From NCBI RefSeq assembly GCF_021398735.1, contig NZ_CP090349.1, positions 3,677,001 to 3,741,000 on the forward strand: a stretch of 64,000 bases of DNA. The letters are read 5' to 3'. The position numbers and the translations under genes are program-made. Below are positions 10,351 to 55,385 of this stretch, in pieces. Under the pieces are notes generated by a model. That model was not told the origin of the DNA, ran no database searches, and was given only the letters and a program-made list of their open reading frames with translations. The stretch comes from Methylobacterium oryzae. GTDB taxonomy: Bacteria > Pseudomonadota > Alphaproteobacteria > Rhizobiales > Beijerinckiaceae. The stretch's first letter is position 1. Each line of letters opens with the position of its first letter.

Positions 10351-11907
10351 ATGCAAGACATCACTATGGTAGAAACGGATTTCGACCGCGACGAGCCTGC
10401 TGCGCTATTCGAATGGACGGTAGTAGAACCGTTGTTTCAATTGCCTCATAGTTTGGTCCCGACAGCTTGGGCCGGTCATATACCATTTTTATTTTCGCTA
10501 ATCAAGATCGACCGTCCAAGGACATTCGTCGAGCTCGGCGTCTTTAATGGCGCTAGCATGATTGCAGCATGCAGTGCGGCCGGGAACTACAATACCGACA
10601 CGGTTTGTTATGGCATTGATACATGGCAGGGGGATGAGCATGCCGGCCTATACGAGGGAGATAAAATCTATGCCGACCTAACAAAGACTTTGGCGGAGAT
10701 TTATCCACCCGCGCGCTTGCTCCGCGGCACCTTTGAAAGCCAATTAGGTCGGTTCAAAGATGGAACAATCGACCTTTTACATATTGACGGGCTGCATACG
10801 TATAGCGCGGTAAAACAAGATTTTGATAGCTGGCTGCCTAAAATGTCAGACCGGGGGATTGTACTATTCCACGACACATGCGTGCGTGAGCGCGAGTTTG
10901 GGGTTTGGAAATTATGGGAAGAATTGAGCGTCCAATATCCCTCAATGGAATTTTATCATAGTTTTGGACTAGGTGTTCTTTTTGTTGGAAATAAACTCAG
11001 TCAAACCACGAAAAGATTGGTTGATTTGTGGACTAATAACGATTCTTTTCGAGAGTTTTTTCGATGCACCTGTGAGCATGTCGGGGCAATACTGCCAAAC
11101 CGAGTGCAGGATCGCGTAAATACCGAATTGTTACATGAAGCCAGGGCGCAGATCGCTCGCGAGCAAGCTCATCAAATATGGCTGAACCGCAACTGGCTGC
11201 ATGCTCAGGAAGAAGCCGAGTGTGAACGGAACAACTCCAAGAAGGAAATTGAACGCATAAATAGTCACGCCTACGACAATCAAATTTCTCTTTGGCGTGA
11301 GATCAGGAAAACACGCCAAGTCAACGCCAGAAGAGCAATTGCTGTCGCAAATAAAAACAGCCCCTTCCTCATAAATCTACCAAGAAGGCGGCAGTCAAAG
11401 CACTCGGATGCCCCCCTTATTGTAAGTCAAACAGGTCTTTTTGACGAAAGTTTTTACAAAAATGAATACTCGGATGTACGCGACAGCGGCGTCAACGCAC
11501 TCGAGCACTTCATTCAACATGGCGTCAGGGAAGGCAGGTGGCCGAACGAATTTTTCGATACAATATGGTACATCTCAGAATACATGAATTATGACAACGT
11601 CGGAATGAATCCATTAATTCATTACTGCAACGAATGGAAGGGAATGAATGTCAATCCGAATCCATACTTCTCAGTGCGTTCGTATCTCGAATGGAATCCT
11701 GACGTCGCAGCCTCGGGTGAAGAGCCGTGCCAACATTTTCTGCGGCTGGGAGGTCGAGAAGGACGCATGACGGATTTCTCGACACCTTTCTATACCATAA
11801 GGCCAGAAGCCTTGGATCAAATGAACAAAGTTGAAGCGCTTCGTCATGCGCTAAAGGTGGACCGAAATATCGATAGGACGATCGAAAATAAGATAAGCAG
11901 GAGCTGA
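10351..11907 (+). CDS. SAM-dependent methyltransferase fused to three FD-FY/NPDV repeats
   Basis: 518 residues in three parts. Residues about 35-230 are a class I methyltransferase of the CmcI/cephalosporin-hydroxylase-like type: TFVELGVFNGASMI for SAM, DLLHIDGLHTY, and GIVLFHDTC. Residues about 260-335 are a charged helical linker likely to form a coiled coil. From about 353 to 500 come three copies of the repeat seen across this window: GLFDESFYKNEYSDV...HFIQHGVREGRWPN, then FFDTIWYISEY...NPLIHYC, then YFSVRSYLEWNPDVAASG. It is AT-rich compared with the flanks and begins the run of island genes. It probably methylates a glycan residue, with the repeats as a targeting or docking part. That last point is inference. 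Confidence 0.85.
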   Translation: MQDITMVETDFDRDEPAALFEWTVVEPLFQLPHSLVPTAWAGHIPFLFSLIKIDRPRTFVELGVFNGASMIAACSAAGNYNTDTVCYGIDTWQGDEHAGLYEGDKIYADLTKTLAEIYPPARLLRGTFESQLGRFKDGTIDLLHIDGLHTYSAVKQDFDSWLPKMSDRGIVLFHDTCVREREFGVWKLWEELSVQYPSMEFYHSFGLGVLFVGNKLSQTTKRLVDLWTNNDSFREFFRCTCEHVGAILPNRVQDRVNTELLHEARAQIAREQAHQIWLNRNWLHAQEEAECERNNSKKEIERINSHAYDNQISLWREIRKTRQVNARRAIAVANKNSPFLINLPRRRQSKHSDAPLIVSQTGLFDESFYKNEYSDVRDSGVNALEHFIQHGVREGRWPNEFFDTIWYISEYMNYDNVGMNPLIHYCNEWKGMNVNPNPYFSVRSYLEWNPDVAASGEEPCQHFLRLGGREGRMTDFSTPFYTIRPEALDQMNKVEALRHALKVDRNIDRTIENKISRS

Positions 11908-11909
11908 CG

Positions 11910-12836: not shown

Positions 12837-12850
12837 GGCGGGGATGCAAC

Positions 12851-17017: not shown

Positions 17018-19069
17018 ATGGAAACTCTTCAAACTGTTGATCCTCATTATGGCCGCCTCTCTGCCGTCGTTGATGCACGATTGATAAAAGATGGGCTTTT
17101 GCGGAATCATATTCGCATCGCCTTCGACCGCCCCGCGAATCCGGTTGTTTCAATTATTATAGTATCTTTTAACGCGCCCGATCTGCTTATTCTGACACTT
17201 TACAGGTTGGCTAGCCATTATAAGTTGGCGGGGGCGGTATTTGAGGTCATCATCGTTGATAATGCTTCTGGAAACGAGACAAAGACAATTCTCAATATTC
17301 TTGACGGAGTCGAAATTATATATTGCGAGACTAATATTGGTTTTGGTCCGGCATGTAATTTAGGTGCCAGATCAGCAAATGGGCGCTACCTGCTCTTTCT
17401 CAATCCTGACGTTGAGCTTATCCCGGGCGCTATCGGTGCGCTAATTGAGCCGTTTTCTGATGATACTGTTGGAATCGTGGGTGCTCGTCTTGTATTTCCA
17501 GGAGGCTATCTGCAAGAGTGCGGCGCGTTCTTCCAGGATGACTCACAGCTTACTCATCCCTACGGTCGCGGCAATAAAAACCCTTTTACCGCTGAGGGCG
17601 CTTTCCGAAGAGATGTCGGATATGTGTCTGGAGCAGTAATGGCCGTCGATCGGACGTTATTTAATAGTCTAGGCGGCTTTGATGATTTGTTCGCCCCGGC
17701 GTATTTTGAGGATACCGATCTTTGTGTGCGATGTCATCAATCTGGGCGACGGGTTGTTTATCAACCGAAGGCGACAGCCATCCATTTCGAAAACGCTACT
17801 TCTCCCAGTCGACAGGACGTGGACTCATTAATAGATCGTAACCGGCAAAGATTTTTGGACCGCCATCGATCGTGGCTCTTTCAACGTCATGAGGCGCCTC
17901 CGCTGTTTGCCGACCGGACGTATGACAGCTGGGCTCTCAAAGTCTTGTTTATAGATGATGCAGTACCGCACCTAGATCTTGGTGCTGGTATGCCTCGTTC
18001 CAACCTTATCGTTACACTGATGGCTCAGCTCGGATACCATGTAACGATATATCCAGTTTATCGATCTGATGTTGACACGCTAGATCGATATCGGGACTTG
18101 CCCGATACGATTGAGATTCTTGATTCGGACGGCGAAGCCGGGCTCAGCGCGCTCCTTGATGGCCGTTGCAACCATTATGATGTTGTTTGGGTGAGCCGAC
18201 CACATAATATAAACCTGTTGTGTGAGCTGATTCAAAGCCGTGATATTGATCTTCGGGTATTAGCTCGACGTAGGGTTATATTTGATTCGGAGGCCCTATT
18301 CTGTGTTCGAGACTTCTTGGAATCAACGCTCAAGAGAGGTGTGGGATTCGGTGCAGCTTTTGGTAGGAATGCTGCGGCGGAGATTCGCAATTTTTCCCAG
18401 GCAGATCATGTTATATGTGTCTCCGAAAGTGAGGCGCGTTTGTTGAAAAACTTTGGCTTAAGTAATGTTTCGGTTCTTGGGCATGCATTTGAGCCGCCTC
18501 CCCGTGATATTCCAAACTTCGGGGACCGAGATGGCTTTGCATTTATTGGGTCGTTGTCTGAAACGTCATCTCCAAATACAGACTCGTTGCTTTGGTTTTT
18601 CAAAACTATATGGCCTCATATTCGGAGCCAAGCTGGCGATGTTAAATTTCGAGTTATCGGGGAGGTCTCCTCAGAGGTTTCTGAAATGTTGTCGTATCCG
18701 GGCGTTAGTTTCGAGGGGCGTGTTATGGACCCAGCGCCTCTTTATGATCAGTCGCGCGTTTTCGTAGCGCCTACTCGGTTTGCGGCTGGTGTTCCCCACA
18801 AAGTTCACGGAGCAATAGCGCAAGGATTGCCCTGTATAGTTACCCCGATTCTGGCCGAACAAGTCGGGTGGCCAGATGGGTCTGGTTTCCGCTGCCATGA
18901 TTGGCGAACTCCGGACGATTTTGCTTCTGGATTGCTTCGATTGTACAGCGACGAGTCTATTTGGCGGGCTGTTCAGAAGAAAGGCTTCGAATATATTGCG
19001 CAGGATTGTTCTCTTTCAATATTTAGGACGACACTGCGCTGCCTCTGTGAGGCCTCGGTAGTAGCATGA
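17018..19069 (+). CDS. dual glycosyltransferase: GT2 fused to GT4
   Basis: 683 residues. Residues about 45-280 are a GT2 domain of the rhamnosyltransferase-like group: VVSIIIVSFNAPDLL, VDNASGNET, CNLGARSANGRYLLFLNPDV with the metal-binding region, and AYFEDTDLCVRC. Residues about 305-680 are a GT-B/GT4 domain: VLFIDDAVPHLDLGAGMPRS at its start, ADHVICVSESEA, FAFIGSLSE, and RFAAGVPHKVHGAIAQGLPCIVTP. Two active sites in one chain suggest addition of two successive sugars, as in repeat-unit polymerising enzymes; this is inferred. The stop overlaps the next start (ATGA). Confidence 0.87.
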   Translation: METLQTVDPHYGRLSAVVDARLIKDGLLRNHIRIAFDRPANPVVSIIIVSFNAPDLLILTLYRLASHYKLAGAVFEVIIVDNASGNETKTILNILDGVEIIYCETNIGFGPACNLGARSANGRYLLFLNPDVELIPGAIGALIEPFSDDTVGIVGARLVFPGGYLQECGAFFQDDSQLTHPYGRGNKNPFTAEGAFRRDVGYVSGAVMAVDRTLFNSLGGFDDLFAPAYFEDTDLCVRCHQSGRRVVYQPKATAIHFENATSPSRQDVDSLIDRNRQRFLDRHRSWLFQRHEAPPLFADRTYDSWALKVLFIDDAVPHLDLGAGMPRSNLIVTLMAQLGYHVTIYPVYRSDVDTLDRYRDLPDTIEILDSDGEAGLSALLDGRCNHYDVVWVSRPHNINLLCELIQSRDIDLRVLARRRVIFDSEALFCVRDFLESTLKRGVGFGAAFGRNAAAEIRNFSQADHVICVSESEARLLKNFGLSNVSVLGHAFEPPPRDIPNFGDRDGFAFIGSLSETSSPNTDSLLWFFKTIWPHIRSQAGDVKFRVIGEVSSEVSEMLSYPGVSFEGRVMDPAPLYDQSRVFVAPTRFAAGVPHKVHGAIAQGLPCIVTPILAEQVGWPDGSGFRCHDWRTPDDFASGLLRLYSDESIWRAVQKKGFEYIAQDCSLSIFRTTLRCLCEASVVA

Positions 19070-19983
19070 TTTACGCTTTTTTGCGGCCCTCCGGTGCAGC
19101 GATCGTTTCTACCCTCTATAGGCGAATATTCCTTGGACGCGTTCCTAAGATATTTGACGCTACTTTTTATTTGAAATCAAATCCTGATGTCGCCGCTTCC
19201 GGCTTAGATCCGTACTTCCATTACGTTTATTATGGTTCTTCTCAGGGCCTGGACCCAGCTGAAGATTTCCATACTTTGTTTTATCGAAACCAATCCGGCC
19301 CCACAAAGTTGGATCCCGTTCGACATTATATTCGCTATGGTGTTAAGCTTGGTATTGATCCAAATCCAAACTTTAGCAGTTCGTCTTATCTCGCTCGTTA
19401 CCCTGATGTAGCCGAACGCGCGATAAATCCGCTTCTTCACTACCGTACCAATGGAAAATTGGAGGGTCGGCTAGCTAGTGCGTCTGCTTCGAAAACTGGG
19501 GATATAACGGCTCTTGTTTCGGTGCCGTCGCGGTTTATTTTCCGACTTCCATCAGAGTCGGCTCGCCAATTTACGTTTTCTTTTTTTGCTGCTTCGGAGA
19601 AGGGGCTGAATTATCAGCCCGCAGCGCGTATTTGCTATTTTCTGCAATTGTCGCACAGAGAGATTGAATTGCTTGTCGATGCATTGTCGGTCATTCAAGC
19701 TAATAGTGTTGAGGAGGTTGAGTTCCGGTTCGACTTACGCAACTTATCTCATTCGATCGAGCGTGGTAATCAGGAATTTGTTGCTGACGTGAAGCCTAAA
19801 ATCGATACGGTGCTGATCGTTTTTGAAGGTTGCTATTTTCATGAGCATGGCTCTTGTATGAAGATAAATTTTTTAGAGTCAAGGATTTGGGATCTTCGCG
19901 GCCCGAATGCGCGGGTTGCTGAAGTTTTTTCGGCAGGTTCGGTTCGGGTTGATACCGATAATGCAATAGCGCCGAATGGATAA
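19066..19983 (+). CDS. FD-FY/NPDV repeat protein with unknown C-terminal domain
   Basis: 305 residues. After a short helical start, residues about 28-140 contain three copies of the window's repeat: IFDATFYLKSNPDVAASGLDP, then DFHTLFYRNQSGPTKLDP, then SSSYLARYPDVAERAINP. The remaining 160 residues are beta-rich and unassigned. No catalytic motif is visible. Translation is coupled to the GT2-GT4 gene by a 4-base overlap, implying the two work together. It is the last AT-rich gene before the IS66 remnants about 100 bases on. The 3' end may have been trimmed by that insertion, since no domain boundary is visible at the C-terminus. Confidence 0.75.
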   Translation: MIYAFLRPSGAAIVSTLYRRIFLGRVPKIFDATFYLKSNPDVAASGLDPYFHYVYYGSSQGLDPAEDFHTLFYRNQSGPTKLDPVRHYIRYGVKLGIDPNPNFSSSSYLARYPDVAERAINPLLHYRTNGKLEGRLASASASKTGDITALVSVPSRFIFRLPSESARQFTFSFFAASEKGLNYQPAARICYFLQLSHREIELLVDALSVIQANSVEEVEFRFDLRNLSHSIERGNQEFVADVKPKIDTVLIVFEGCYFHEHGSCMKINFLESRIWDLRGPNARVAEVFSAGSVRVDTDNAIAPNG

Positions 19984-20085
19984 ACGATCTGCTATAGGCT
20001 GATACCCGATTTTTATTTAGTCGTTATGATTTGGAAGCGTTTGAAACCTAGACGGTTGCGGCGCGTCGTCGTTGTTTGGCGTCTG

Positions 20086-23657: not shown

Positions 23658-24458
23658 TCACATCTGGATCTTGCTGACGACGTGCTTCACGAGGAACAGG
23701 CCGATGCTGGCCGAGGTGAGACCGAACATCAGGACGTAGAGCTGGTCGATCTGCAGTCCCGCGTAGGGGTAATAGGCCGAGCGCACCCATTCCGCCAGCT
23801 GAAGGGCCGGGTTGAATTTCATCCAGTAGTAGATCTTGTCCGGCATATAGCTCGGCAGGAACATCACGCCGCTGGAGATGTAGAGGATGATGCTGAAGAG
23901 CGCGTAGCCGATCAGCCAGCCCGGGAAGAAGCCGATGATCGCGACGTTGATCGTTCCGATGCCGATGCCCAGCACGATCGCCGCCAGATAGCCGCACATC
24001 GCCGTGAACGGGTCGGCCGGGATCGGATTGGTCCCGATGGCCACGAGGACGGAGGAGACCACGAGCAGGGCCAGAAAGCCGGTGACGATCTCGACGAGGA
24101 TGCGGGCCAGGATCACGTCGAACAGTTTCACCTGCGGGTAATAGGTCAGAGGGCGGTTCATGATCACCGCCTTCATGACTTCGCGGGAGATGTACTGAAA
24201 GACCAGAACCGGCACCGCGCCCGTGGCGAAGAAGAGCGGCCGGCTGTCGCCGAGGGGGGCCGCCAGTTTCTGGAAGGTGTAGATCGCGATCAGCACGAAC
24301 ACGTGCACGCAGGGCCAGAGCACGACCACGCCGTAGCCCCAGATCGAGGCACCGAAGCGGGTGCGCATGTCGCGCAGCATCAGCGCGTGCAGCACGTGCA
24401 GGTAGGATTCGACCGGGCCCTTCTGCGATTCGGGCTTCGGGAGGGCGGGCATCGACAT
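23658..24458 (-). CDS. ABC-2 type polysaccharide export permease
   Basis: 266-residue membrane protein of the Wzm/KpsM type. After a soluble start, LMLRDMRTRFGASIWGY is the typical cytoplasmic motif before the first span. About six hydrophobic segments follow, including VLWPCVHVFVLIAIYTF, FLALLVVSSVLVAIG and YLAAIVLGIGIGTINVAII. It ends with FLVKHVVSKIQM. It would move a lipid-linked glycan across the inner membrane together with an ATPase. No ATP-binding partner (Wzt/KpsT) is present in this window. AGAGG precedes the ATG. Confidence 0.87.
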   Translation of the reverse strand: MSMPALPKPESQKGPVESYLHVLHALMLRDMRTRFGASIWGYGVVVLWPCVHVFVLIAIYTFQKLAAPLGDSRPLFFATGAVPVLVFQYISREVMKAVIMNRPLTYYPQVKLFDVILARILVEIVTGFLALLVVSSVLVAIGTNPIPADPFTAMCGYLAAIVLGIGIGTINVAIIGFFPGWLIGYALFSIILYISSGVMFLPSYMPDKIYYWMKFNPALQLAEWVRSAYYPYAGLQIDQLYVLMFGLTSASIGLFLVKHVVSKIQM

Positions 24459-24533: not shown

Positions 24534-27500
24534 TCAGACCGCCAGGCCGTAGTAGGCCCGCATGAGGTCGGCGGGGGCGGCGTCCGGGATCGGTTGCGCC
24601 CCCCGCCCGGATTCCGAGACGTCGATCGCCATGAGTCGGTCGTTGCAGGCGGCCGGATCGGTCATGAGCGCGCGGGGCAGGAGATGGCCGTTCGGCACGC
24701 CGCGCAGCCGCTCAGCCGGCGCGCCGAGGTCGAAGGCCGTCACCGGCAGGCCGGTGCGCAGGGCCAGGGTGAGCGCGTACGCGTAGGTCTCGGGCCAGAT
24801 CGACGGCAGCAGCACGAGGTCGGCCGAGACCTGCGTGACGAGATCGAGGGTCTCGTCGTCCTCCCAGTGGCGGCCGGTCTCGGCGATCTGGAGGGCCGCC
24901 CGGGCGACCCGGTCGAGGGTCGGATCGTCGGTGGAGTACCGCCCCGTCTCGGTCACGCCGGCGCGCGCGAGGCCGCCCGTCAGGGCCGGGTCCGAGTGGC
25001 CCACGATCGTGAATGTGAGCGGCAGGTCCCGCTCGCGCGCGTCCGAGGCCAGGGCCTGCAGCAGCAATCCGCCCTCGGGGAGACTGATGCCGCCGAGCAC
25101 GGCGACGCGGCGGATTCGGCCGGGCCGCTGGAGGGCGGTCGAGCGCACCGACCGCTCCGGCTCGACGTGCGGCCGCACCGTGACCGACAGATCCGGGTAC
25201 ACCGTCCGGATCCGGCCCGCCGTGTCGGAGGACGGCGCGAACACCCGCGCGGCGCCCGCCAGGAACGCCCCGAACGCCGCCCGCCGCTCGCCCGGGTCCG
25301 GCTCCTCGAACCCGTCCGCGTCCACCGCCAGGCACGACCGGCACTCCGCCACCGGCGCCAAGCCGCAGTAGCGCCCGTCCGGCTGCACCAGGTGGTTGCG
25401 GTGGCACACCGGCGAGTAGTCGTGCAGCGTCCACGCGTAGGGACGCCCCGCGCCCGCCACCACCTCCATCAGCGCCCGCGCCGCGCCCCAGCGCAGCCCC
25501 GCCAGCGAGTGCACGTGGATCAGAACCGGCGCCAGCTGCCCGACGAAGTCGGCGAGCTCGGCCGCGTCGCGCGGCAGGTACAGGCTGTCGAGGTTGGGCA
25601 GGTACAGGAACTCGGGGCCGCGATACGAGACGTGGACCTCGAGGTTGCGGGTCCGGTCGATCTGCAGCAGCACCACGCTCAGGCCCTCGGCCCGGGCCTG
25701 CGCGACCGTGTCGTCGATGTGCCGCTGGATGCCTCCGCCCCAGCTGTGCGTCACGTAGAGCAGCGCCCGGCCGGCGAAGTGCCGGGCGAGCCGCGCCCGG
25801 TCGAGCCGCGCCCGCCCGCGCCGGCCGGGATCGGCCTGGACGAACTGCCCGACCCGGGCCGGGTAGTCGGGATGCTTGGCGAGCAGCGCCGCCTGGCCCT
25901 GGTCGTACTCGCCGCCCGCGTCGAGGCCGAACGAGATCTGGCCGGCGTGGTGGACGAACACGTCCTCGGCGAGCAGGTTGACGAAGCCGGCCTTGATGGC
26001 GCGCAGGCACCAGTCGTTCTCCTCGCCGTAGCCCTTGCCGAAGGCCTCGGCGTCGAGGTCGCCGACGGCGTCGAGGGCGGCGGCGGTCATGTACATGCAG
26101 AAGCCGACGCCGGTGGGCACGGGCACGGCGCGGCCGCGATTGACCTGCGCGGCGAGGCGGTCGAGGTCGGGCCGGGCGATCTCCAGCGGCATGGTGTTGT
26201 TGGCGTTGAAGCGCGGGTAGGAGCAGATCGTGGCGTTGTTGGACAGGGGCGTGACGCTGCCCACGGGCAGCCCCGCGCCCATTCCCGCCTCTGCGCCTGC
26301 CTCCCCGCCGGACCCGGCCTGAGGTTCGGCGTTGTGTTCGGCGTGGGCGACGAGGCGGTCGAGCCAGTCGCCGAAGACCTGAGCGTCGGAGTTGAGCAGG
26401 ACGACGGCGCGGCCCTGGCGCAGGCCGAGGGCGCGGTTGACCGAGCGGACGAAGCCGAGGTTGTGCTCGTTCTCGACGAGGTGGAACAGGCCGCGGCCGG
26501 CGAGGGCGGCGAGGTCTGCGGACAGCTGCGGGTCGGGGGAGCGGTCGTTGACGGCGAGCAGGGTGAAGGGGGTGGCCTGGGGCGCGGACAGGCAGGCGTG
26601 GAGGGCGCGCAGGGTCTCGCCGCGGCCCTTGTAGACCGGGACGATGACGACGACGCGGGCCTGCGCGATGGGCAGGGCCCGGGGCAGGCGGTCCCACGCG
26701 TCGGCGGGCGGGGCCTCCATGGGCGGGTAGGTGCCGAGATCCTCGGGGCAGCCCATCAGCCCGGCGGCCCGGCCCGCGCGCACGTAGTGCAGGAACGGCG
26801 ACTCCCCCGCGCCCAGGAGATGCCCGTAGGCCCGGCGGTAGAAGCGGGTCGAGAAGGTCTTGCTCGGGTCGCGGTCCTCCTCCTGGCCGTGGGACAGGAA
26901 GTGGATCGCCGGCCCGTTCTCGAAGCCGCCGGTGTCCGGGTAGCGCTTGAGGTACCAGGGCGCGTCGAAGAGCGGCTCGATCAGGCGGGCCTGCTCGAAC
27001 AGGTCGGCGTCCTCCTCGGCCGGCGGCGCGCCGTAGCGCGGATCGAAGGCGTCGCCCGCGAGGTCGTCGCCGCGCAGAAGGGCCCGGGCGAGGTGATGGA
27101 CGAAGGGCGCGAGGCCCGTCGCCTCCGCGGAGGGATGGTGCGCGCGGTAGGCCCAGCCGTTGAAATCGGGCCTGGGATTGCGGCCCTTGCGCCAGCCGGT
27201 GTCGCAGTAGTCGCGCACTGCGTCCTCCGCCTCGGACAGCCCGTAGCGCGCCCGGTAGAAGCCGTGGTCGAAATGCCCCGCCACCAGACGCGCCTGCAGG
27301 TCCAGGAACGCGTCCCGGTCGAGGATCTCCCGCCCGATCGCCCCCAGCCAGGCCGTGTCCTCGACCGGCGCCCGCGCCGGCCGCAGCCCGCAGACCCGCA
27401 GCAGCGCCGCCAGCGTCGAGCGCCCCGGGCCGGGATCGCGCAGCTCCCGCCAGCCCGCCTCGGCGAAGTGCAGGAACGGCTCGCGCCCGCCCACGTCCGG

Positions 27501-28484
27501 ATAGGTCGCCCGGTACCACGCCGCGTCCACCGCCGGCAGGTTCAGCCGGTGCGGCTCCGCGAACGGCTCGGCCCCCGTCAGCCGCGCCTCGGCCACGTAG
27601 CGGAAGAACGGGTCGTCCGCGACCGCCCGGCTGCCGGCCCGCGCCTGCACGTAGCCGGCGGGGTCGAAGTCCGGTCGCGGGCCGATCCGCGCCCGCCAGC
27701 CCTCCGCCACGTAGTGGCGCAGCAGCGCCGCGTCCGGGGCCCCGGCCAGCGCCTCGGCCTGCGGTCCGGGCAGGCGCTGCCGGTAATGGGCGGCGTCGAA
27801 GTAGGGGGCGAGGGTCTCGACCCGCAGCGCGCGCGCGGCGTCCGGGTCGGGGCGGGCCGGTCCGCCGTGGAGGACGTAGTGGACCAGCGGGTTCTGGGTC
27901 GTGAAGGTGATCCCGCGGCTGAGGCAGTAGGCCAGGGTGTCGAATTGCGGCGCCGGCTCGCGGCCCTCGCGCCAGCCGGAGGCCATGTAGTGGTCGACCG
28001 GGTCGACGCCGGCGGCGGCGAGGTCGGGGTTGCCGGCGAGGTAGAAGGCGCCGTCGACGAGGCGGCGGGCGAGGCGGTGGGCCTCGGCCGTGTCGGGCTT
28101 GGGCAGGGCGGCCGCCTCCCCCTCCCCTTCACGTCCGGCGCGGCGGCGCGCGAGGGCGTGCAGGAGCGGGTTGATGCCGGCGCGGGCGAGGTGGGGATGG
28201 GCGGCGAGGTAGGCGGCGGAGTCGAAGTCGGGGCGCGGGTCGCGGCCCGCGCGCCAGCCGTGGACGAGGTAGTCGCGCACCGGGTCGGCCGCGATCCCGT
28301 ACCAGCTCGCGTAGAACGCTTTGTCAAAGTGCAGGGCCAGGACGGCGATCTGCGCGTCCGCTGTGACGAGATCGTCCGCCGCCGGCAGGCCGCGGCGGGC
28401 CGCCAGCCGGATCAGCGGGTTGCCGCTCGCGCGGACCGGGCCGGAGCGCGCCCAGCGATGGTACAGGCCGCGGATCTGCTTCAA
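24534..28484 (-). CDS. giant multidomain glycosyltransferase: about 11 FD-FY/NPDV repeats + GT2 + GT4
   Basis: 1316 residues. Residues about 50-575 hold roughly eleven copies of the window's repeat in long-short alternation (for example HFDKAFYASWYG...DYLVHGWRAGRDPRPDFD, and LVDGAFYLAGNPDLAAAGVDP). Residues about 609-870 are a GT2 domain with VVVIVPVYKGRGETL, VVLLNSDAQVFG, and GYGEENDWCLRA. A Gly/Ala/Glu-rich insert sits at about 717-741. Residues about 903-1310 are a GT4 domain, from RALLYVTHSWGGGIQRH to VLLPSIWPETYAYALTLALRTGLPV (motif region). The start is TTG with no better in-frame option nearby. It lies next to the export permease. Likely a dual-function glycan chain transferase; the repeats may bind glycan or partners. 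Substrate unknown. Confidence 0.88.
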   Translation of the reverse strand: MKQIRGLYHRWARSGPVRASGNPLIRLAARRGLPAADDLVTADAQIAVLALHFDKAFYASWYGIAADPVRDYLVHGWRAGRDPRPDFDSAAYLAAHPHLARAGINPLLHALARRRAGREGEGEAAALPKPDTAEAHRLARRLVDGAFYLAGNPDLAAAGVDPVDHYMASGWREGREPAPQFDTLAYCLSRGITFTTQNPLVHYVLHGGPARPDPDAARALRVETLAPYFDAAHYRQRLPGPQAEALAGAPDAALLRHYVAEGWRARIGPRPDFDPAGYVQARAGSRAVADDPFFRYVAEARLTGAEPFAEPHRLNLPAVDAAWYRATYPDVGGREPFLHFAEAGWRELRDPGPGRSTLAALLRVCGLRPARAPVEDTAWLGAIGREILDRDAFLDLQARLVAGHFDHGFYRARYGLSEAEDAVRDYCDTGWRKGRNPRPDFNGWAYRAHHPSAEATGLAPFVHHLARALLRGDDLAGDAFDPRYGAPPAEEDADLFEQARLIEPLFDAPWYLKRYPDTGGFENGPAIHFLSHGQEEDRDPSKTFSTRFYRRAYGHLLGAGESPFLHYVRAGRAAGLMGCPEDLGTYPPMEAPPADAWDRLPRALPIAQARVVVIVPVYKGRGETLRALHACLSAPQATPFTLLAVNDRSPDPQLSADLAALAGRGLFHLVENEHNLGFVRSVNRALGLRQGRAVVLLNSDAQVFGDWLDRLVAHAEHNAEPQAGSGGEAGAEAGMGAGLPVGSVTPLSNNATICSYPRFNANNTMPLEIARPDLDRLAAQVNRGRAVPVPTGVGFCMYMTAAALDAVGDLDAEAFGKGYGEENDWCLRAIKAGFVNLLAEDVFVHHAGQISFGLDAGGEYDQGQAALLAKHPDYPARVGQFVQADPGRRGRARLDRARLARHFAGRALLYVTHSWGGGIQRHIDDTVAQARAEGLSVVLLQIDRTRNLEVHVSYRGPEFLYLPNLDSLYLPRDAAELADFVGQLAPVLIHVHSLAGLRWGAARALMEVVAGAGRPYAWTLHDYSPVCHRNHLVQPDGRYCGLAPVAECRSCLAVDADGFEEPDPGERRAAFGAFLAGAARVFAPSSDTAGRIRTVYPDLSVTVRPHVEPERSVRSTALQRPGRIRRVAVLGGISLPEGGLLLQALASDARERDLPLTFTIVGHSDPALTGGLARAGVTETGRYSTDDPTLDRVARAALQIAETGRHWEDDETLDLVTQVSADLVLLPSIWPETYAYALTLALRTGLPVTAFDLGAPAERLRGVPNGHLLPRALMTDPAACNDRLMAIDVSESGRGAQPIPDAAPADLMRAYYGLAV

Positions 28485-28723: not shown

Positions 28724-29326
28724 TCAGATCAGGTCGGACCGCCACGTCACGTTCTCACGCACGATCCGCGCGGGATTGCCGGCGGCCACGCAGTGGGGCG
28801 GCACCGTCCCGGTGACGACGGCGTGCGCGCCGACGATCGCGTTGTCGCCGATGACCGTGCCCTTGAGCAGGGTGGCCTGATTGGCGATCCAGACGTGGTT
28901 GCCGACCCACACGGGCTTGGCCGGGTTCAGCCGCGCGCCGGTGTCCCGGGTGACGATGGAGTGGAAGTCGCTCGTCGTCATCCAGACGCCCGACGCGATC
29001 GAGCAGTCCGTGCCGATCTCGATCGCCTTTCCCTCGACGGGGTTGAGATGGACGAGCCCGGTGAAGCCGGTCCGGTCGCCGATGCGCAGCACCGAGCCGG
29101 GGCCGATATAGATGTTGGCCATCGACAGCCGCACGTCCTCGCCGACATCGAATCGGCAGTTCGACTCGATGACGATGTGCATGTCCTTGTCGGACACGCA
29201 GCCCCTGCCTATGCGGATGTAGTTGTTGTCGCCGTTGACGTAGATTTTTCCCGCTTGGCTGTGCTGATCCCGCGAATCAATGTCGATGACATTATTCTCC
29301 CCTTTGTCGAAGATATTCAAAGACAT
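28724..29326 (-). CDS. hexapeptide-repeat acyltransferase
   Basis: 200 residues folding as a left-handed beta helix of [LIV]GxxxX hexapeptides. Examples are IRIGRGCVSD, VGEDVRLSMANIYIGPGS, AIEIGTDCSIASG, and the conserved PVWVGNHVWIANQATLLKG near the C-terminus. The sequence ends with the family AGNPARIVRENV. This belongs to the sugar O-acetyltransferase group (maltose/colanic-acid acetyltransferase type). Likely acetylates a sugar hydroxyl using acetyl-CoA. It is first of a minus-strand series, about 240 bases upstream of the giant glycosyltransferase, and divergent from the next gene. Confidence 0.85.
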   Translation of the reverse strand: MSLNIFDKGENNVIDIDSRDQHSQAGKIYVNGDNNYIRIGRGCVSDKDMHIVIESNCRFDVGEDVRLSMANIYIGPGSVLRIGDRTGFTGLVHLNPVEGKAIEIGTDCSIASGVWMTTSDFHSIVTRDTGARLNPAKPVWVGNHVWIANQATLLKGTVIGDNAIVGAHAVVTGTVPPHCVAAGNPARIVRENVTWRSDLI

Positions 29327-37674: not shown

Positions 37675-37746
37675 GATCGGCCGGCGTCCGGACAATGAGT
37701 GTTTCTGGATCCGGCCCTTGAGCGCCCGATGCCCGGAGGGGTTGGT

Positions 37747-39300
37747 ATGAGTGCCGTCCTCATCTCCAGTTTGCGCGCACGCGTCAGCCTGTTTCTCGCG
37801 CGGAAGCTGGTCGATGCCGAGTATTATCTCAACCGCTATCCTGACGTCCGCGCGGCCGGTGTCGACCCGGTCCGACACTTCGCCGAATGCGGTTATGCCG
37901 TGCCCATCCGCGCGGCGAACCCGTCCATGGAGCGGGCCATCATCAGGCTCTCACCCTTCCTGGCGCTGGCGGTCGTGCTCCTGCCGATCCGGCGCGACGA
38001 CTGGGTCCAATGTTTCGTCGCCCATTATCAAGAGCTCTGGTGCGGCGACCTGGGTTTGGAATTCCGCTTCGCCCGCTGGGTTGCGCGTCTCCTGGCGGCC
38101 CGGGCCACGGGTTCCGGGCCCGACGCTGCGAGTCTGGAGCGGATCGTCGGCACCACGCTCCCGATCGCCCGGATCGGCGACGAGCATCCCTGGCTCACTC
38201 TGCGGAAGATGGACCCGCCAGAGACGCACCGATTCAGCTCCCCCCGGGTGTGGGAAGGGCGCGGCGCGCTCGTCGCGCGCGAGGTCACGCTACCCCCGCT
38301 CTGGTGCGCGACCGTCCAGAACGCCAGCGTCTTCGGAGCCATGCAGGTCGCGGCGAGCGGCCACTTCGTGAGCTACGAGCCCGCCGCCGATCCGAGTCTG
38401 TCCTTCGCGGCCGGCCAGTTCCGGCACGTCATCGCCTGCTACGCGCCGCAGGACAACAAGATCGTGGCGCGCCTGCCCGACGCCGCGACGACCCGCCTCG
38501 ACGAGGCGATCCTGCTGGGCGGCCGGTGCAGCAACAACCATTTCCATTTCCTCATCGAGTATCTCTCCCGAGGCTATCTGATCGATCGCCTGGATATCCC
38601 CGACGAGATTCCGCTGGTCATCTCGGACAATCTGTTTCCATCGCAGATGGAGGCCCTAAGATTATTCTTTCCGAGTCGGAAGTTCGTCGGGGTGTCCAGC
38701 CAGCAGCGGCTCGACATCGGGCGGCTCCACATTCCGTCTGTCATGACGTATCTCCCGGACGCGCTTGAGGTCACCGACTGGAAGAAGGAAGGACTCCGCC
38801 TCGCGAGCCTGGAATGGCTGCGGAGCCGTGCCTACGAGGCCCTGAGCTCCGAAGACGACGTACCGTCCCGACCGTCCCGGGTCTTTCTAGCCCGGCGGCG
38901 CGGCAGGAACATCGTGAACGCCGACGAGGTCGAGGCTGTCTTCGCGCGGCACGGCTTCTCGATCGTGGATCCGAGCGCTCTGTCCTTCATCGAGCAGGTG
39001 AGACTGTTCGCGTCCGCAACCCATGTCGCCGGTCCTCTGGGCGCAGCGTTCTCGAACACGATCTTCTGCAGGCCCGGGACATCCGTGCTGGGTCTCGGAT
39101 CACGCTACGCCGTCACCTCGTCGCTGTTCCAAAATCTAGCGGAATTGATGGGCTGTAACTGCATCCACCTCTTGAGCGACAAGAGAAAGCGTGACTTTAT
39201 TCGCCTGAGTGCGAACAAGATCTCGCTCCGACAAGGAAGCTATGCCATCAACACGCGGCGCCTCGACGGCTTACTGAAGACGTGGCTCAAGGCGGCCTAG
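37747..39300 (+). CDS. GT61-type glycosyltransferase with N-terminal FD-FY/NPDV repeat
   Basis: About 517 residues. Residues about 18-60 hold one repeat (LVDAEYYLNRYPDVRAAGVDP, then VRHFAECGY). The C-terminal two thirds are a GT61/DUF563 domain: RCSNNHFHFLIEYLSRGYL with the family His/Asn-rich motif, VFLARRRGRNIVNADEVE, and PLGAAFSNTIFC near the end. ATG 37747 has GGAGGGG upstream and places the repeat near the N-terminus; an earlier ATG at 37699 is less likely. It is a close paralogue of the protein at 40,195-41,718, alike along the full length. Donor sugar unknown (GT61 members include xylosyl- and GlcNAc-transferases). Confidence 0.83.
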   Translation: MSAVLISSLRARVSLFLARKLVDAEYYLNRYPDVRAAGVDPVRHFAECGYAVPIRAANPSMERAIIRLSPFLALAVVLLPIRRDDWVQCFVAHYQELWCGDLGLEFRFARWVARLLAARATGSGPDAASLERIVGTTLPIARIGDEHPWLTLRKMDPPETHRFSSPRVWEGRGALVAREVTLPPLWCATVQNASVFGAMQVAASGHFVSYEPAADPSLSFAAGQFRHVIACYAPQDNKIVARLPDAATTRLDEAILLGGRCSNNHFHFLIEYLSRGYLIDRLDIPDEIPLVISDNLFPSQMEALRLFFPSRKFVGVSSQQRLDIGRLHIPSVMTYLPDALEVTDWKKEGLRLASLEWLRSRAYEALSSEDDVPSRPSRVFLARRRGRNIVNADEVEAVFARHGFSIVDPSALSFIEQVRLFASATHVAGPLGAAFSNTIFCRPGTSVLGLGSRYAVTSSLFQNLAELMGCNCIHLLSDKRKRDFIRLSANKISLRQGSYAINTRRLDGLLKTWLKAA

Positions 39301-39515: not shown

Positions 39516-40109
39516 ATGCACATGCCCATCGACCGGATTCGTGAAACGCGTCCGCTGGACAGCCGAAGGCGCTCGCATCTGCGGCTGGCTGAGCCGAGCG
39601 ACGCGGCTCTGATCTACCGTTTGCGCTCCGACAACCGTCTCAGCCGTTTCCTCAACGCGCCACCCACCACGGTCGAAGAGCAGGCGGCGTGGCTCACACG
39701 ATACAAGAGCGACGAGACCGCAGGTAGACAGTACTATTTCATCATCGTTTCCGATGGTCAGGATCGCGGCACGGTCCGGATGTACGATTTTCGGATCATC
39801 AACGGATTGAAATCGTTCTGTTGGGGCAGCTGGATCATCGCGCCTCCTCCCGTCGTCGGCCTCGCAGGTTACTCCGCGCTCGCGATCTACGAACTGGGAT
39901 TTGAGCACCTCGGATTCGAGCATTGTCATTTCGACGTGCGTCGTGAAAATGAGAGCGTGATCAATTTCCACCTCCGTTCAGGCGCGAAAATCGTCGACGA
40001 GGGCGAGCAAGATTATTTTTTTCACTTCAGTCGCGAAGCTTATGACGCGTTCAGGGCGGCGCATGTGTCGATCCTTGAGCGCCACTCCGCTTTGTTGCAG
40101 GCCTCCTGA
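39516..40109 (+). CDS. GNAT-family N-acetyltransferase
   Basis: 197 residues (ATG 39516, or two codons later at 39522). GNAT fold landmarks: HLRLAEPSDAALIYRLR at the start, YYFIIVSDGQDRGTVRMYDF for the central strands, AGYSALAIYELGFEHLGF for the CoA-binding region, and RRENESVINFHLRSGAK, the typical RimJ/PseH-like C-terminal motif. Probably N-acetylates an aminosugar precursor, as PseH does in pseudaminic acid synthesis, but the exact substrate is not shown. It lies between the two paralogous GT61 genes. Confidence 0.8.
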   Translation: MHMPIDRIRETRPLDSRRRSHLRLAEPSDAALIYRLRSDNRLSRFLNAPPTTVEEQAAWLTRYKSDETAGRQYYFIIVSDGQDRGTVRMYDFRIINGLKSFCWGSWIIAPPPVVGLAGYSALAIYELGFEHLGFEHCHFDVRRENESVINFHLRSGAKIVDEGEQDYFFHFSREAYDAFRAAHVSILERHSALLQAS

Positions 40110-40194
40110 TCGGAGCGGTGACGAGCGACGGTGCTGGGCACCCGATCTCGGCTGCACGATGCGCCGTTCGACGTCGAGGATAGAAATCTCAGCG

Positions 40195-41718
40195 ATGTTG
40201 GAGTGGTTTGCCTTACGGGTCGCGCGCCGGATCGTCGACAGTGACTACTATCTGACGCGAAATGCCGATGTGGCGGCGGCGGGCGTCGATCCGGTCGCCC
40301 ATTTCGCCCGACACTGGTCCGCGGCGCCGTTGCGCGCGCCCAACGCGCGCATGGAGGCGCGGATCTACGCGTGGTCGCCCGTGCTCGTCGCCGTTCTGGC
40401 GATGCTCGGGCAGAGCCGCCAGGACATCACGGACTGCTTCCGCTACCGCATCAACCAACTCGCGACCCAGCGCGGCTTCGGCCTGCAGCTTCGGCTCGCC
40501 CTCGCGCTCGCGCGCTTCCTCGCCGTACGGTCCGCATCGCCCGCACGTCCGAGCGGCGGAGCGGACACCGGTCTCGGTTCAATCTACCCGGTGGTGCGGA
40601 TCGGGCAGGATGCGGTGCCCTGGATCGACTGCCGCGGCATCGCGGAAGCCGGCATATTCGACTTCGCGGATCCAGAGATCGCCCTATCCGCGCAGCCGCC
40701 GACCGCCCGTCGACTGCGCAGGCCGGAACTCTGGTGCGCGACGATCCGGGACGCGTCGATCTTCGGCTTCGCTCAGGTCGTCTCCCATTCCGCCTTCGTG
40801 GTCTACGAGCCGGAGGCGGACCCGGCGTTCCGCTACACGAGCCGCCAGTGCGAGTTCGTCATCACCTGTTTCGGCCCCAAGGGCGACCGGGTCCTGGCCC
40901 GCGTCCCGCAGGAGGCCGATCGGGCGATCGATGCGGGCATCCTTCTGATCGGGCGATGCGGTGCGAACTATTTCCACTTCCTGATCGAGTACGCCACGAA
41001 GGGCTACATCGTCGACAACGCGTCGATACCGCAGGATGTGCCGCTCATCCTGAGCGACGATCTGTTTCCGCAGGAAATGGACGCCCTGAAGCTGCTCTTC
41101 CCGGGGCGCCCATTCACGGTCCGGAAGCACGGTCAGCGGCTGGACGTGAAGACGCTCTACGTTCCGTCCTTGATGACCTTCATTCCGGACACGCCCGATG
41201 TCGAGTTCTGGACGGTCGCCGCTGTCAATCACGCGAGCCTTTCCTGGCTGCGCGGGCGGGTGCTTGAGGCCGTGCCTGCGCCCCGTACCGCGCCGGACCG
41301 GAAGCTCTATCTCGGTCGATCCGCGGGGCGTAACATCATGAACGCCGCCGAGGTGGAGGCAGTGTTTCGCCGGCACGGCTTCGAGATCGTGAACCCGGGG
41401 CAGCTCAGCTTCGCGGAACAGGTCGAGGCTTTCAGGACTGCGCGCTGCATCGCCGGGCCGATCGGCGCCGCCTTCGCCAATCTGGTTTTCGCATCCCCGG
41501 CCACCCTCGTCCTGGGACTCGTGTCGCCGTTCGCCGTGCAGTTCTCGACGTTCGCGAGTCTCGCGACGTTTGCCGGGTGTCGTTACTTGGCCGTCCCCGG
41601 TGAGCACGGGGCCTATCGCCCCGGCGCCGAGACGCGGCGCCGCTCGCTCGAGCTGACGCACGGCAATTACCGCATCGATCTCGATTACCTTGATACGGTG
41701 CTGCGGACCTATGTCTGA
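40195..41718 (+). CDS. GT61-type glycosyltransferase with N-terminal FD-FY/NPDV repeat (paralogue)
   Basis: About 507 residues from ATG 40195. The N-terminal repeat reads IVDSDYYLTRNADVAAAGVDP. The GT61 domain has RCGANYFHFLIEYATKGYI, LYLGRSAGRNIMNAAEVE, and GPIGAAFANLVFA. Matched stretches with the protein at 37,747 (for example LWCATIRDASIFG against LWCATVQNASVFG) show a duplication. Other starts exist: ATG 40159 has no better ribosome-binding site, and 40042 overlaps the upstream GNAT gene. Sugar specificity unknown. Confidence 0.83.
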   Translation: MLEWFALRVARRIVDSDYYLTRNADVAAAGVDPVAHFARHWSAAPLRAPNARMEARIYAWSPVLVAVLAMLGQSRQDITDCFRYRINQLATQRGFGLQLRLALALARFLAVRSASPARPSGGADTGLGSIYPVVRIGQDAVPWIDCRGIAEAGIFDFADPEIALSAQPPTARRLRRPELWCATIRDASIFGFAQVVSHSAFVVYEPEADPAFRYTSRQCEFVITCFGPKGDRVLARVPQEADRAIDAGILLIGRCGANYFHFLIEYATKGYIVDNASIPQDVPLILSDDLFPQEMDALKLLFPGRPFTVRKHGQRLDVKTLYVPSLMTFIPDTPDVEFWTVAAVNHASLSWLRGRVLEAVPAPRTAPDRKLYLGRSAGRNIMNAAEVEAVFRRHGFEIVNPGQLSFAEQVEAFRTARCIAGPIGAAFANLVFASPATLVLGLVSPFAVQFSTFASLATFAGCRYLAVPGEHGAYRPGAETRRRSLELTHGNYRIDLDYLDTVLRTYV

Positions 41719-52368: not shown

Positions 52369-52785
52369 TTGGGCGAGGACGTAGAGGCGCTGCGGGCGGA
52401 ACTCGCCGAGACCCAGGCGCGGCTCAAGGAAGCGCAGGGCGAGCTGGCCCGGCTGGTGCGCCTCGCCGAGGCGGATCTCCAGCGCCGGCGTCCCGGCGAG
52501 CAGTCGAGCGTCGTCGCCTCGTCGGTGCGCCGCCCCGCCGCCAAGGAGGTCGCGGCCCGGATCGCCCGCTTCGCCCACCTCTACCGGGAAGCCGCCGAGG
52601 CCACTCCGGACCGCGCCCCGGTCGTCCCCGAGCAGACGATGCTCGCCTGGCTCGAGACATCCGGCCTGTTCGACCGCCAGTTCTACCTCGCGTGCAACGA
52701 CGACGTCGCCAATGCCGGGGCCGATCCGATGATGCACTACTACAATCATGGGTCGGAGGAGGCGCGCCTGCCCTCGACGCTGTGA
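52369..52785 (+). CDS. small coiled-coil protein ending in one FD-FY/NPDV repeat
   Basis: 138 residues. Residues 1-45 are a strong heptad helix (VEALRAELAETQARLKEAQ). Residues about 97-138 are a single copy of the window's repeat: GLFDRQFYLACNDDVANAGADP, then MMHYYNHGSEEARLP, ending at the protein terminus. It has no catalytic domain, so it looks like a stand-alone adaptor built from a dimerisation helix and the shared repeat. TTG 52369 is the furthest start; a GTG inside the coil is the alternative. The next gene also begins with this repeat. Confidence 0.65.
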   Translation: MGEDVEALRAELAETQARLKEAQGELARLVRLAEADLQRRRPGEQSSVVASSVRRPAAKEVAARIARFAHLYREAAEATPDRAPVVPEQTMLAWLETSGLFDRQFYLACNDDVANAGADPMMHYYNHGSEEARLPSTL

Positions 52786-52915
52786 GGCCGATCGGCGGCG
52801 CGGGCGCGGCGGGTTGACGGATCTCGGAAGTCTTTGCCAGCTCTGCAATCGATCGTGCCAAGTATAAAGTCAGAAGCAAAGCCGATAGACTTCGCAATCG
52901 TCTCTATCGGTCGCG

Positions 52916-52944
52916 TTGACCCTCCCCCTGCCGTGATCTAGGGA
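52916..52944 (+). promoter_or_regulatory. possible sigma-70-type promoter
   Basis: TTGACC at 52,916-52,921 and TAGGGA at 52,939-52,944 with a 17-base spacer. The -35 box is good and the -10 box is weak. It would give a leader of about 30 bases before the GT2 protein start at 52,980. The neighbourhood is locally AT-richer than its flanks. Confidence 0.3.
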
Positions 52945-52979
52945 GCGGCCGGACGGGGCGCGTGCGAGGGATCAGACCG

Positions 52980-55385
52980 ATGCAGGACGGTGCAGGCGCG
53001 AGCGCGCCGGGCTCGACCACGGCTTCGCCCGCGCTCGAGCCGTGGCAGGACGACTTCGCCACGATCTACGCCAGCGGCCTGTTCGATCATATCGGCTACG
53101 CGACGCGCTATCCCGATGTCGGCCTGACCGACCTGTCACCCCTGGAGCACTACGTGAAGTACGGCGCCCGGCTCGGGCGCCGGCCCCGGGCCGATTTCAC
53201 CGCGCCGCCGGACGAGACCTTCGACGGCAGCTTCGTCAATCCCTTCGCGGCCTGGCTCCGCGCGCGGGCCGAGACCGAGCCGGCGCCGGCCTGGAACCGG
53301 CCGGTCGTCTCGGTCCTGTGCATCAGCTACAACCAAGCGGCCTTCATCCGGCAGACCCTGGAGAGCATCCTCGGCCAAGCCACCGACTTCCCCTTCGAGC
53401 TGCTGGTCGGCGACGACCGCTCCACGGACGGGACCGCCGAGATCATCGCCGAGTACGCCGCGCGCCACCCCAACCTCGTGGCGGTCCTGCGCAGCGAGAA
53501 TCTCGGGCCGAACCGGAACTTCGCCGACCTCACGGCACGCGCCCGCGGCGAGTTCGTGGCGATCTGCGAGGGTGACGATTACTGGACCGACCCGCGCAAA
53601 CTCCAGCGGCAGGTCGACTTCCTGCGGGCGCGCCCGGAATTCACCCTCTGCTTCCACCGGGTGCGCGTCGTCTACGAGGACATGCCGGGGGTCGACGAGC
53701 TGTACCCGAAGCAGTGCAGCCCGCAGCCGTCGCTGTCGGACCTCGTGGCGCACAACTTCGTCCAGACCAACAGCGTGCTCTACCGCTGGCGCTACCACGG
53801 CGAGGAGGCGTTCGTGTTCGACGAGGGCATCGCCCCCGGCGACTGGTACGTCCACCTGATGCACGCCGAGGTCGGGCGCGTCGGCTTCCTGCCGGAGGTG
53901 ATGGCGGTCTACCGAAAGCACGCCGCCGGGATGTGGGCGACCTACGCCACCGAACTCGCCCGCCACAAGAAGCTCGGCAACTCCGAGATCGCGTTCTTCC
54001 GCAAGCTGCGCGGCCATTTCGGCGGCCGCTACGCGGCGGGCTACGAGGCCGCGCAGAAGTCGATCTTCCGGCGGCTGGCCGAGGCCTATCTCGACGAGGA
54101 GGACGTGCCGAGCCTCGGGCGCCTGATCGAGGCCAACCCCGACATCGCCCGGGACGCCTTGAGCGACATGGGTCTCGACGCGCCGGATGACCTTTCAGGA
54201 GAGCCGGAGGCCCTGCGCGCGTGGCTGCTGGAGCAACTCACTGTCAGCGTCATCGTCACGGCCTACAACCACGCCGCCGATATCGGCCGCTGCCTCGACG
54301 CGGTGCTGGGCCAGCGTGGCCTGTTCCGGATGCAGGTCGTGATCGGCGACGACCAGTCCACCGACGGCACTGCCGCGATCGTCGAGCGCTACCGGGCACG
54401 CGACCCGGAGCGGATCTCGGTGCGGCCCCGGCCGCAGAACCTCGGCATGCTGCGCAACATGCAGGACTGCCTCGCCGCCTGCACGGGCCGGTACATCGCC
54501 TTCTGCGAGGCGGACGATTACTGGCTGTCGGACCGCAAGATCGCTATGCAGATGCGGATGCTGCGCAACGACCGCAAGCTGGGCATGTGCTTTAACTGGG
54601 TGCTGCTCCACTACCCGGCGACCGGCTCCTACGTCCCGCACGACGAGCAGGGCCGCTATCCCACCGGCCCGATCAGCTTCCCGGTCCTGGCCAACTCGCC
54701 GCTCACCGCCAACTTCTCCTGCTGTTTCTACCGCGCCGAGGCTCTGCGCCGGGTTCCGGAGGCCTACTACGCGAACGCCTCGGCGGCCGACTGGCTGATG
54801 AACCTCTACGTCGCCGACAAGGGCCGGATCGCGTTCCTGCGGGAGCTGCTCTCGGTCTACACGGTCCAGGAGAAGGGCCAATGGTCGGGCCTGCCGGAGG
54901 ACATCAAGAACGCCCGGATCGCCCAGTACCAGAAGGAGTTCGCCGGCATCTTCGGGGAGGGGCGCGGCTTCGAGAAGTACGAGGTGGGCTGCACGGTCGC
55001 CGAACTCGACGGCGAGCTGCCGGATTCCTTCGCCCGCGCGAACCTGGAGGTCCCCCAGGACCGGGTCTGGGCCGAGATCCAGGACGGGCAGGTGGTGCTG
55101 GCGGGCTGGGTCGTCTCGGCGAGCCGCGCCAAGGCGACGCTGATCGTGGCGGCCGACGGCGAGGTCCAGCGCATCCCCGCGGACGTTCACCGGCCGGATG
55201 TGATCGCCGCGGTGCTGGGCGACATGCCCACCACGATGGAGGAGGCCCGCTGCGGCTTCCGCTTCACCCTCCCCTACGCGCTCCACCTCGAGGTGCTGCT
55301 CTCCATCGAGGTCGAGCACGAGGTCGTGCCCTGGCTCTCGGTGATCTTCACCCACCGGGTGAAGCGGGGGCCCCAGCAGGGCTGA
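52980..55385 (+). CDS. tandem GT2 glycosyltransferase with N-terminal FD-FY/NPDV repeat
   Basis: 801 residues from ATG 52980 (GAGGGA eight bases upstream). Residues about 33-72 are one repeat (GLFDHIGYATRYPDVGLTDLSP). Two GT2 domains follow, both of the type with GDD...STDGT. The first spans about 108-310 (VVSVLCISYNQAAFIRQTL, LLVGDDRSTDG, CEGDDYWTDPRKL). The second spans about 421-660 (VSVIVTAYNHAADIG, VVIGDDQSTDG, CEADDYWLSDRKI). The near-identical motif order suggests internal duplication. Residues about 690-801 are a small unassigned beta-rich domain. It probably adds one or two sugars per cycle; specificity unknown. Confidence 0.87.
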   Translation: MQDGAGASAPGSTTASPALEPWQDDFATIYASGLFDHIGYATRYPDVGLTDLSPLEHYVKYGARLGRRPRADFTAPPDETFDGSFVNPFAAWLRARAETEPAPAWNRPVVSVLCISYNQAAFIRQTLESILGQATDFPFELLVGDDRSTDGTAEIIAEYAARHPNLVAVLRSENLGPNRNFADLTARARGEFVAICEGDDYWTDPRKLQRQVDFLRARPEFTLCFHRVRVVYEDMPGVDELYPKQCSPQPSLSDLVAHNFVQTNSVLYRWRYHGEEAFVFDEGIAPGDWYVHLMHAEVGRVGFLPEVMAVYRKHAAGMWATYATELARHKKLGNSEIAFFRKLRGHFGGRYAAGYEAAQKSIFRRLAEAYLDEEDVPSLGRLIEANPDIARDALSDMGLDAPDDLSGEPEALRAWLLEQLTVSVIVTAYNHAADIGRCLDAVLGQRGLFRMQVVIGDDQSTDGTAAIVERYRARDPERISVRPRPQNLGMLRNMQDCLAACTGRYIAFCEADDYWLSDRKIAMQMRMLRNDRKLGMCFNWVLLHYPATGSYVPHDEQGRYPTGPISFPVLANSPLTANFSCCFYRAEALRRVPEAYYANASAADWLMNLYVADKGRIAFLRELLSVYTVQEKGQWSGLPEDIKNARIAQYQKEFAGIFGEGRGFEKYEVGCTVAELDGELPDSFARANLEVPQDRVWAEIQDGQVVLAGWVVSASRAKATLIVAADGEVQRIPADVHRPDVIAAVLGDMPTTMEEARCGFRFTLPYALHLEVLLSIEVEHEVVPWLSVIFTHRVKRGPQQG

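Follow-up and report, generated by a model that had tools for sequence, protein, structure and literature searches.

According to passages of PMC11231755, Klebsiella O-polysaccharides are built by multiprotein complexes, and the chain terminator bears a coiled-coil ruler; the C-terminal end region of WbdD has a polymerase-recruitment site, and in the O4 terminator a TPR-like bundle adjoins the coiled coil. Here we describe a repeat unit of about 36 residues that occurs in 20 copies over seven proteins of a Methylobacterium oryzae locus, and that we tentatively read, from the analyses below, as a docking module of polysaccharide assembly dependent on ATP-binding cassette (ABC) transporters. The window analysed is a stretch of 64,000 nucleotides (contig NZ_CP090349.1, positions 3,677,001 to 3,741,000, forward strand), and coordinates are given within it. 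Over the loci compared, the repeat consensus is FDxx(W/F/Y)YLxx(N/Y)PDVAxAG(I/V)(N/D)PLxHYxxxGxxEGR(D/N)P, in which core residues F, Y, H, G and P are near-strict and E-G-R is mostly kept. The seven proteins and their units are as follows.

10351..11907, plus strand: S-adenosylmethionine (SAM) methyltransferase (PF13578, Pfam scan), with a charged linker and three C-terminal units
11440-11547, 11554-11661 and 11668-11772, plus strand: the three units of the methyltransferase (profile searches)
19066..19983, plus strand: protein without Pfam match, made of three units and a C-terminal beta-rich domain (Pfam scan, model)
19153..19476, plus strand: the three units of that protein, the second shortened (profile searches)
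24534..28484, minus strand: giant protein of ten N-terminal units followed by GT2 and GT4 glycosyltransferase domains (profile, Pfam, model)
26748..28328, minus strand: array of the giant glycosyltransferase, ten units, nine near-complete and one partial (profile searches)
37699..39300, plus strand: GT61 glycosyltransferase with one N-terminal unit at 37810-37914, its EGR end lost (profile, Pfam)
40042..41718, plus strand: GT61 glycosyltransferase with one N-terminal unit at 40234-40338, its EGR end lost (profile, Pfam)
52369..52785, plus strand: small protein with a coiled-coil-like N-terminus (by eye) and one unit at 52669-52776 (profile searches)
52962..55385, plus strand: tandem GT2 with one N-terminal unit at 53082-53189 (profile, Pfam)

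A local profile run against the six-frame translation of the window gave 20 matches at E <1, all within these seven open reading frames (ORFs): three in the methyltransferase, three in the protein at 19,066, ten in the giant glycosyltransferase, and one each in the two GT61 proteins, the small protein at 52,369 and the tandem GT2. A genome-wide profile search returned 20 matches in the same seven window ORFs, 19 of the 20 being present in the alignment behind the profile. The first-pass annotation of this stretch had counted roughly 21 copies, about 11 of them in the giant glycosyltransferase; the figures become 20 and ten, and the giant ORF lies on the minus strand. In its array, the genome-wide search aligned nine units along almost the full profile and one in part, and the local search matched four of the ten only in part. 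When each protein in turn was left out of the profile, all seven were recovered, at E values from 1e-35 to 6e-9, with top non-members at 0.96 to 5.2; recovery of each GT61 protein was aided by the other, since the two are homologues. The sharing of one module by seven proteins, as first proposed, is therefore upheld, and the supposition that all seven are unrelated is not: the homology of the GT61 pair leaves six protein types. Across 20 shuffles the best domain reached 9 bits, whereas 18 of the real copies scored 22-59 bits and the two partial ones 7 and 12; because the profile used there was trained on the real copies, leave-one-protein-out is the cleaner control. The start codon of the small protein at 52369..52785 is uncertain, several homologues starting a few residues upstream.

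Ten repeat ORFs were found in the genome as a whole, a tally that omits two weak, isolated matches (E 0.22 and 0.81), and seven of the ten sit within the window. None of 200,000 random placements, with genes treated as independent, put seven of ten within 46 kb. That the repeat crosses a border between AT-rich and GC-rich DNA, also proposed in the first pass, was confirmed, the island at 10-20 kb having a GC content of 0.45-0.50 against 0.63-0.75 elsewhere in the window. Transposase-like fragments, which we take to be of IS66 type, lie at 20,017-20,679 (minus strand) and 21,492-21,866 (plus strand), separating the AT-rich island from the GC-rich part. Elsewhere in the same genome there is a second giant repeat glycosyltransferase, closely similar by eye (L036:7887-11822, plus strand, C1 about 3,229-3,233 kb), and an SGNH hydrolase-like ORF (by eye) with two C-terminal units (L038:7948-9171, about C1:1,757,000). 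The latter stands near a flagellin-like ORF and is possibly linked to flagellin modification.

AlphaFold2 models the protein at 19,066 with a mean predicted local distance difference test (pLDDT) score of 88 and ten-residue means of 89-97 across residues 21-140; in this model the complete units form short helices at FDxxFYL, PDVAAS and DPxxHYxxxG. The N-terminal 600 residues of the giant glycosyltransferase are modelled as nearly all helical, at a mean pLDDT of 81.5. The expectation that the copies share a structure is supported to this extent, units being all-helical in both window proteins folded. A fold search of PDB with models of longer protein parts, rather than of the repeat alone, gave no fold that stood out. 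Scans of the carrier proteins with Pfam and NCBIfam found no model covering the unit, neither the TPR nor the Sel1 families of Pfam match any of the seven window proteins at E values up to 1, and a search of the literature found no description of a single repeat unit common to these glycan enzymes and to the secreted proteins introduced below. Residues ~150-305 of the protein at 19,066 form a beta-rich C-terminal domain, conserved in ~30 homologues, with neither a Pfam match nor a clear fold match.

The repeat is present in 38 of 41 Methylobacterium genomes, that of the window included, and in at least 31 of the 299 genomes sampled across the phylum, with Methylobacterium accounting for five and with no more than 25 candidates scored in each genome. 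A collection scan yielded 79 repeat loci from many phyla, many of them in metagenome-assembled genomes, with 114 repeat ORFs and 513 units; the locus titles name Alpha- and Gammaproteobacteria, Cyanobacteria, Acidobacteria, Bacteroidales, Verrucomicrobia, Chloroflexi, Desulfobacterales, Campylobacterales, Actinobacteria and others. Unit number runs from 1 to 21 per ORF, with arrays of up to 16 contiguous units and 21 units in one ORF. Among phage only one record matched, MT836085.1 (10,648-11,244, 28.5% identity, repeat-like), whose stated source is human fecal samples.

The tally of Pfam partners covers 111 of the 114 repeat ORFs and omits three that are fragments of 74-81 residues. The leading partners are GT2 (PF00535, 40 ORFs), Glycos_transf_1 (29), WbsX (13), RgpF (11) and RTX calcium-binding nonapeptides (PF00353, 11 of the 111; absent by Pfam from the seven window proteins), accompanied by Peptidase_M10 (at least six), Peptidase_S8 (at least three), methyltransferases, sulfotransferases and TagB-type enzymes. 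Annotated plasmid carriers are likewise glycosyltransferases, GH99-like proteins, methyltransferases, a sulfotransferase, M10 peptidases and calcium-binding proteins. Most repeat carriers, then, are glycan enzymes. The repeat is nevertheless not glycan-specific, because it is also borne by exported proteases and by RTX proteins, and the exclusivity to glycan assembly implied by the first-pass annotation is not supported: the same core residues recur near the C-terminus of metalloproteases, subtilases and RTX proteins, with type I secretion genes often close by, and the core does not differ between the two classes. Secreted forms include short RTX proteins with three C-terminal units and very long ORFs with six. 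In 21 of 22 secreted-class proteins, picked by eye and leaving out three ORFs of locus L089, one of them with an N-terminal array, between 3 and 19 residues separate the last unit from the C-terminus. Within the loci fetched from the phylum sample, G316 was the one genome in which we recognised carriers of the secreted type. Proteins resembling nonribosomal peptide synthetases (NRPS), with AMP-binding, PP-binding and thioesterase domains, also occur: one (L189:605-5086) has two units near its C-terminus, and another, P0061, was picked up by the repeat region of the giant glycosyltransferase.

The window methyltransferase shows 47% identity over 210 residues to a methyltransferase encoded on an Escherichia coli plasmid (locus L203), where the gene order is export protein, ABC permease and ATPase, 912-residue methyltransferase, GT2. 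This methyltransferase has a coiled-coil-like stretch at residues 621-798 and two C-terminal units, and the adjoining GT2 has one N-terminal unit. On an Azospirillum plasmid (L205), an ABC ATPase with a Wzt_C domain, a methyltransferase with nine unit matches and an ABC permease are encoded together, the units sitting between the methyltransferase and a C-terminal glycosyltransferase-like part. No kinase family appears among the Pfam matches of the window methyltransferase or of the L203 and L205 proteins. Some chain terminators lack a kinase. The kinase of the O7 terminator is itself unannotated, as a passage of PMC11231755 has it. By a crude rule of our own making, used in place of a published predictor, coiled-coil-like stretches were called in 23 of 147 repeat ORFs and in seven of 348 other ORFs. 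Small proteins that look coiled-coil-like by eye and bear one to several units occur in several proteobacterial genera (L096, L099, L101, L128, L193 and L198); two of the six pass the crude rule.

Around the carriers, the window holds these further genes.

23658..24458, minus strand: ABC-2 permease, 75 bp downstream of the giant glycosyltransferase (weak PF01061 match, PDB match)
28724..29326, minus strand: hexapeptide O-acetyltransferase upstream of the giant glycosyltransferase, its nearest solved relative a polysialic acid O-acetyltransferase
47209-49062, minus strand: third GT61, with no repeat match in the local profile search of the window

The PF01061 match of the permease (E 2.2e-4) is below the family cut-off; in PDB it matches 8tsh_C, 'Transport permease protein', at E 6.4e-22, a series that is presumably KpsM. 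An ABC-2 export permease is thus present in the window locus, in L203 and in L205, and a partner ATPase in L203 and L205; Wzt_C was found in the window's own genome at C1:738,792 only, and no search was aimed at KpsT in the window. A permease of the window type lies within about 4 kb of a giant-glycosyltransferase unit, sharing contig and strand with it, in six (G000, G002, G007, G021, G026 and G031) of the 12 genomes that we chose. An FkbM-like methyltransferase (by eye; 22,303-23,055, minus strand) belongs to the same strand run as the permease and has no PDB match at E <=0.01. Between 33,755 and 37,674 stands a row of KAS III-like, short-chain dehydrogenase, acetyltransferase and DegT aminotransferase genes (by eye), which we take to resemble amino-sugar acylation pathways.

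A small single-unit protein of the 52,369 type is encoded in 13 of 59 genomes, and in all 13 it lies 50-200 bp from a single-unit tandem GT2, which is itself found in 14 of the 59; since the genomes are related, the 13 pairings are not independent events. In G013 and G017 the small protein is flanked by two GT2 copies. More broadly, neighbour sets (omitting ORFs longer than 900 residues) comprised 130 of 238 neighbours of enzyme-type carriers outside the genus, taken two ORFs per side, and all 114 neighbours of secreted-type carriers, two ORFs per side for 40 and three for 74. Enzyme-type neighbours included GT2 in 17 of 130 cases, epimerases in ten and RmlD in nine, against at most one GT2 in a control of 130 of 185 random ORFs, drawn from Methylobacterium only and so not phylum-matched. 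Secreted-type neighbours included the type I secretion parts ABC_membrane (8 of 114) and HlyD_3 (6 of 114), with no glycosyltransferase among the families listed (25 of 115).

We tentatively favour docking because, in proteins that combine methyltransferase, coiled coil and repeat, the repeat takes the place that the polymerase-recruitment region has in WbdD. Glycosyltransferases, tailoring or putatively chain-ending enzymes such as methyl- and sulfotransferases, and small coiled-coil proteins each bear one or more units, and the units would bring their carriers together by binding either one another or a shared partner. The first-pass proposal of a docking or glycan-binding code is supported in part, by the predicted all-helical units, the predominance of glycan enzymes among carriers, and the polysaccharide export genes and other repeat proteins adjoining, and is not supported in its exclusivity to glycans. 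Several results weigh against it. Cytosolic docking leaves the repeat of exported metalloproteases, subtilases and RTX proteins unexplained. By the crude rule there is no coiled coil in the Azospirillum methyltransferase, and no window protein passes, the methyltransferase linker included; only the small protein at 52,369 comes near, a variant of the rule with another residue set scoring it at 0.36-0.41, where the limit is 0.35. The predicted enrichment in glycan loci, strong outside the genus, is not seen inside Methylobacterium, where GT2 makes up at most two of the neighbours of repeat glycosyltransferases (88 of 110 taken, three ORFs per side, after dropping the neighbours of five secreted-type loci), and this result counts against a simple linkage to glycan loci. 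Two of the 12 permease genomes, G010 and G022, have the permease away from the giant-glycosyltransferase matches listed, and four more (G013, G017, G037 and G038) could not be judged. Finally, the resemblance between units of different proteins in one locus exceeds chance only slightly (28 of 1000 permutations).

The secreted class is better explained if the unit is an all-helical carbohydrate-binding module, because its glycan ligand would be available on both sides of the envelope. In the cytosol, such a module would hold the growing or finished chain for glycosyltransferases and tailoring enzymes, and outside it would anchor secreted carriers to surface polysaccharide, weak single sites being strengthened by arrays or by coiled-coil oligomers. 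One ligand would then cover both classes, which have the same core residues; the conserved aromatic and charged residues are also consistent with this, although they may be purely structural, and arrays of 16 contiguous units, or of 21 in one ORF, would suit weak multivalent binding. Yet the window's own genome has enzyme-type copies and no RTX-type copy was found in it, the neighbour families listed for secreted carriers include type I secretion parts and no glycosyltransferase, and the repeat is also borne by NRPS-like enzymes. Carbohydrate binding is the main rival of docking, and seems somewhat unlikely. That a single glycan address code serves both faces of the envelope is rather unlikely; by such a code polymerases, tailoring enzymes and coiled-coil rulers would gather on the nascent chain inside, and type I-secreted proteases and RTX proteins would be anchored outside to the same finished polysaccharide.

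Two other explanations are less probable. The many partner domains, the range of 1-21 copies and the placement at either terminus would suit a generic helical spacer or rod, shuffled among unrelated proteins without a ligand of its own; the near-strict F, Y, H, G and P with the mostly kept E-G-R core, the strong bias towards glycan enzymes, and the single-unit copies in the conserved small-protein/GT2 gene pair, hardly able to act as a rod, make such a spacer improbable. One fold might instead have two uses, cytosolic assembly docking and, in the secreted class, a part in the type I C-terminal export or folding region. The C-terminal position of the last unit in the 21 of 22 proteins, a by-eye choice, the ABC_membrane and HlyD_3 neighbours, and a serralysin in L071 whose profile match ends at residue 370 of 462 with repeats after it, all point this way. 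Secreted-class carriers with N-terminal arrays exist, however, at L089:10010 and in L200 (cut by the contig edge), and L090 has 88 residues beyond its last unit, and we regard the double use as very improbable.

The repeat, for which the scans returned no Pfam or NCBIfam model, ties together enzymes that are usually annotated singly. If docking is correct, it would open a direct way to study both the cohesion of polymerases, chain-ending enzymes and exporters and the control of chain length, and sequence searches could pick out unannotated members of such complexes. If glycan binding is correct instead, the repeat would be a new kind of binding module, and it may explain why some secreted proteins are retained at the surface.

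Among described systems, TPR and Sel1 repeats are similar in being tandem helical units of 34-38 residues, and differ from the present repeat, which in the best model has three short helices per unit and which conserves a core of FD, PDV, NP, HY and EGR. The carbohydrate-binding modules of carbohydrate-active enzymes (CAZymes) and Wzt_C are, like it, non-catalytic modules on many different glycan enzymes; the present repeat is all-helical and tandem, and its glycan binding is putative. RTX proteins and serralysins, for example Caulobacter Sap as portrayed in passages of PMC3034196, likewise have an RTX or protease body and an extra C-terminal region, and type I secretion genes lie near several repeat carriers, but in the present carriers that region consists of the repeat borne by glycan enzymes. 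The WbdD-type systems of E. coli O9a and Klebsiella O3, O4 and O7 are matched by the union of methyltransferase, coiled-coil-like stretch and C-terminal region in the single L203 protein, by the adjoining glycosyltransferase gene in L203, and by the ABC exporter of L203 and the permease of the window. They differ in that the window methyltransferase is of the PF13578 family, with a short linker and no kinase among its Pfam matches, and in that the repeat is common to many other enzymes and to secreted proteins. Helical repeats and coiled-coil terminators are known; what appears to be new, as far as the literature search indicates, is one uncatalogued unit that runs across all these parts and into secreted proteins as well.

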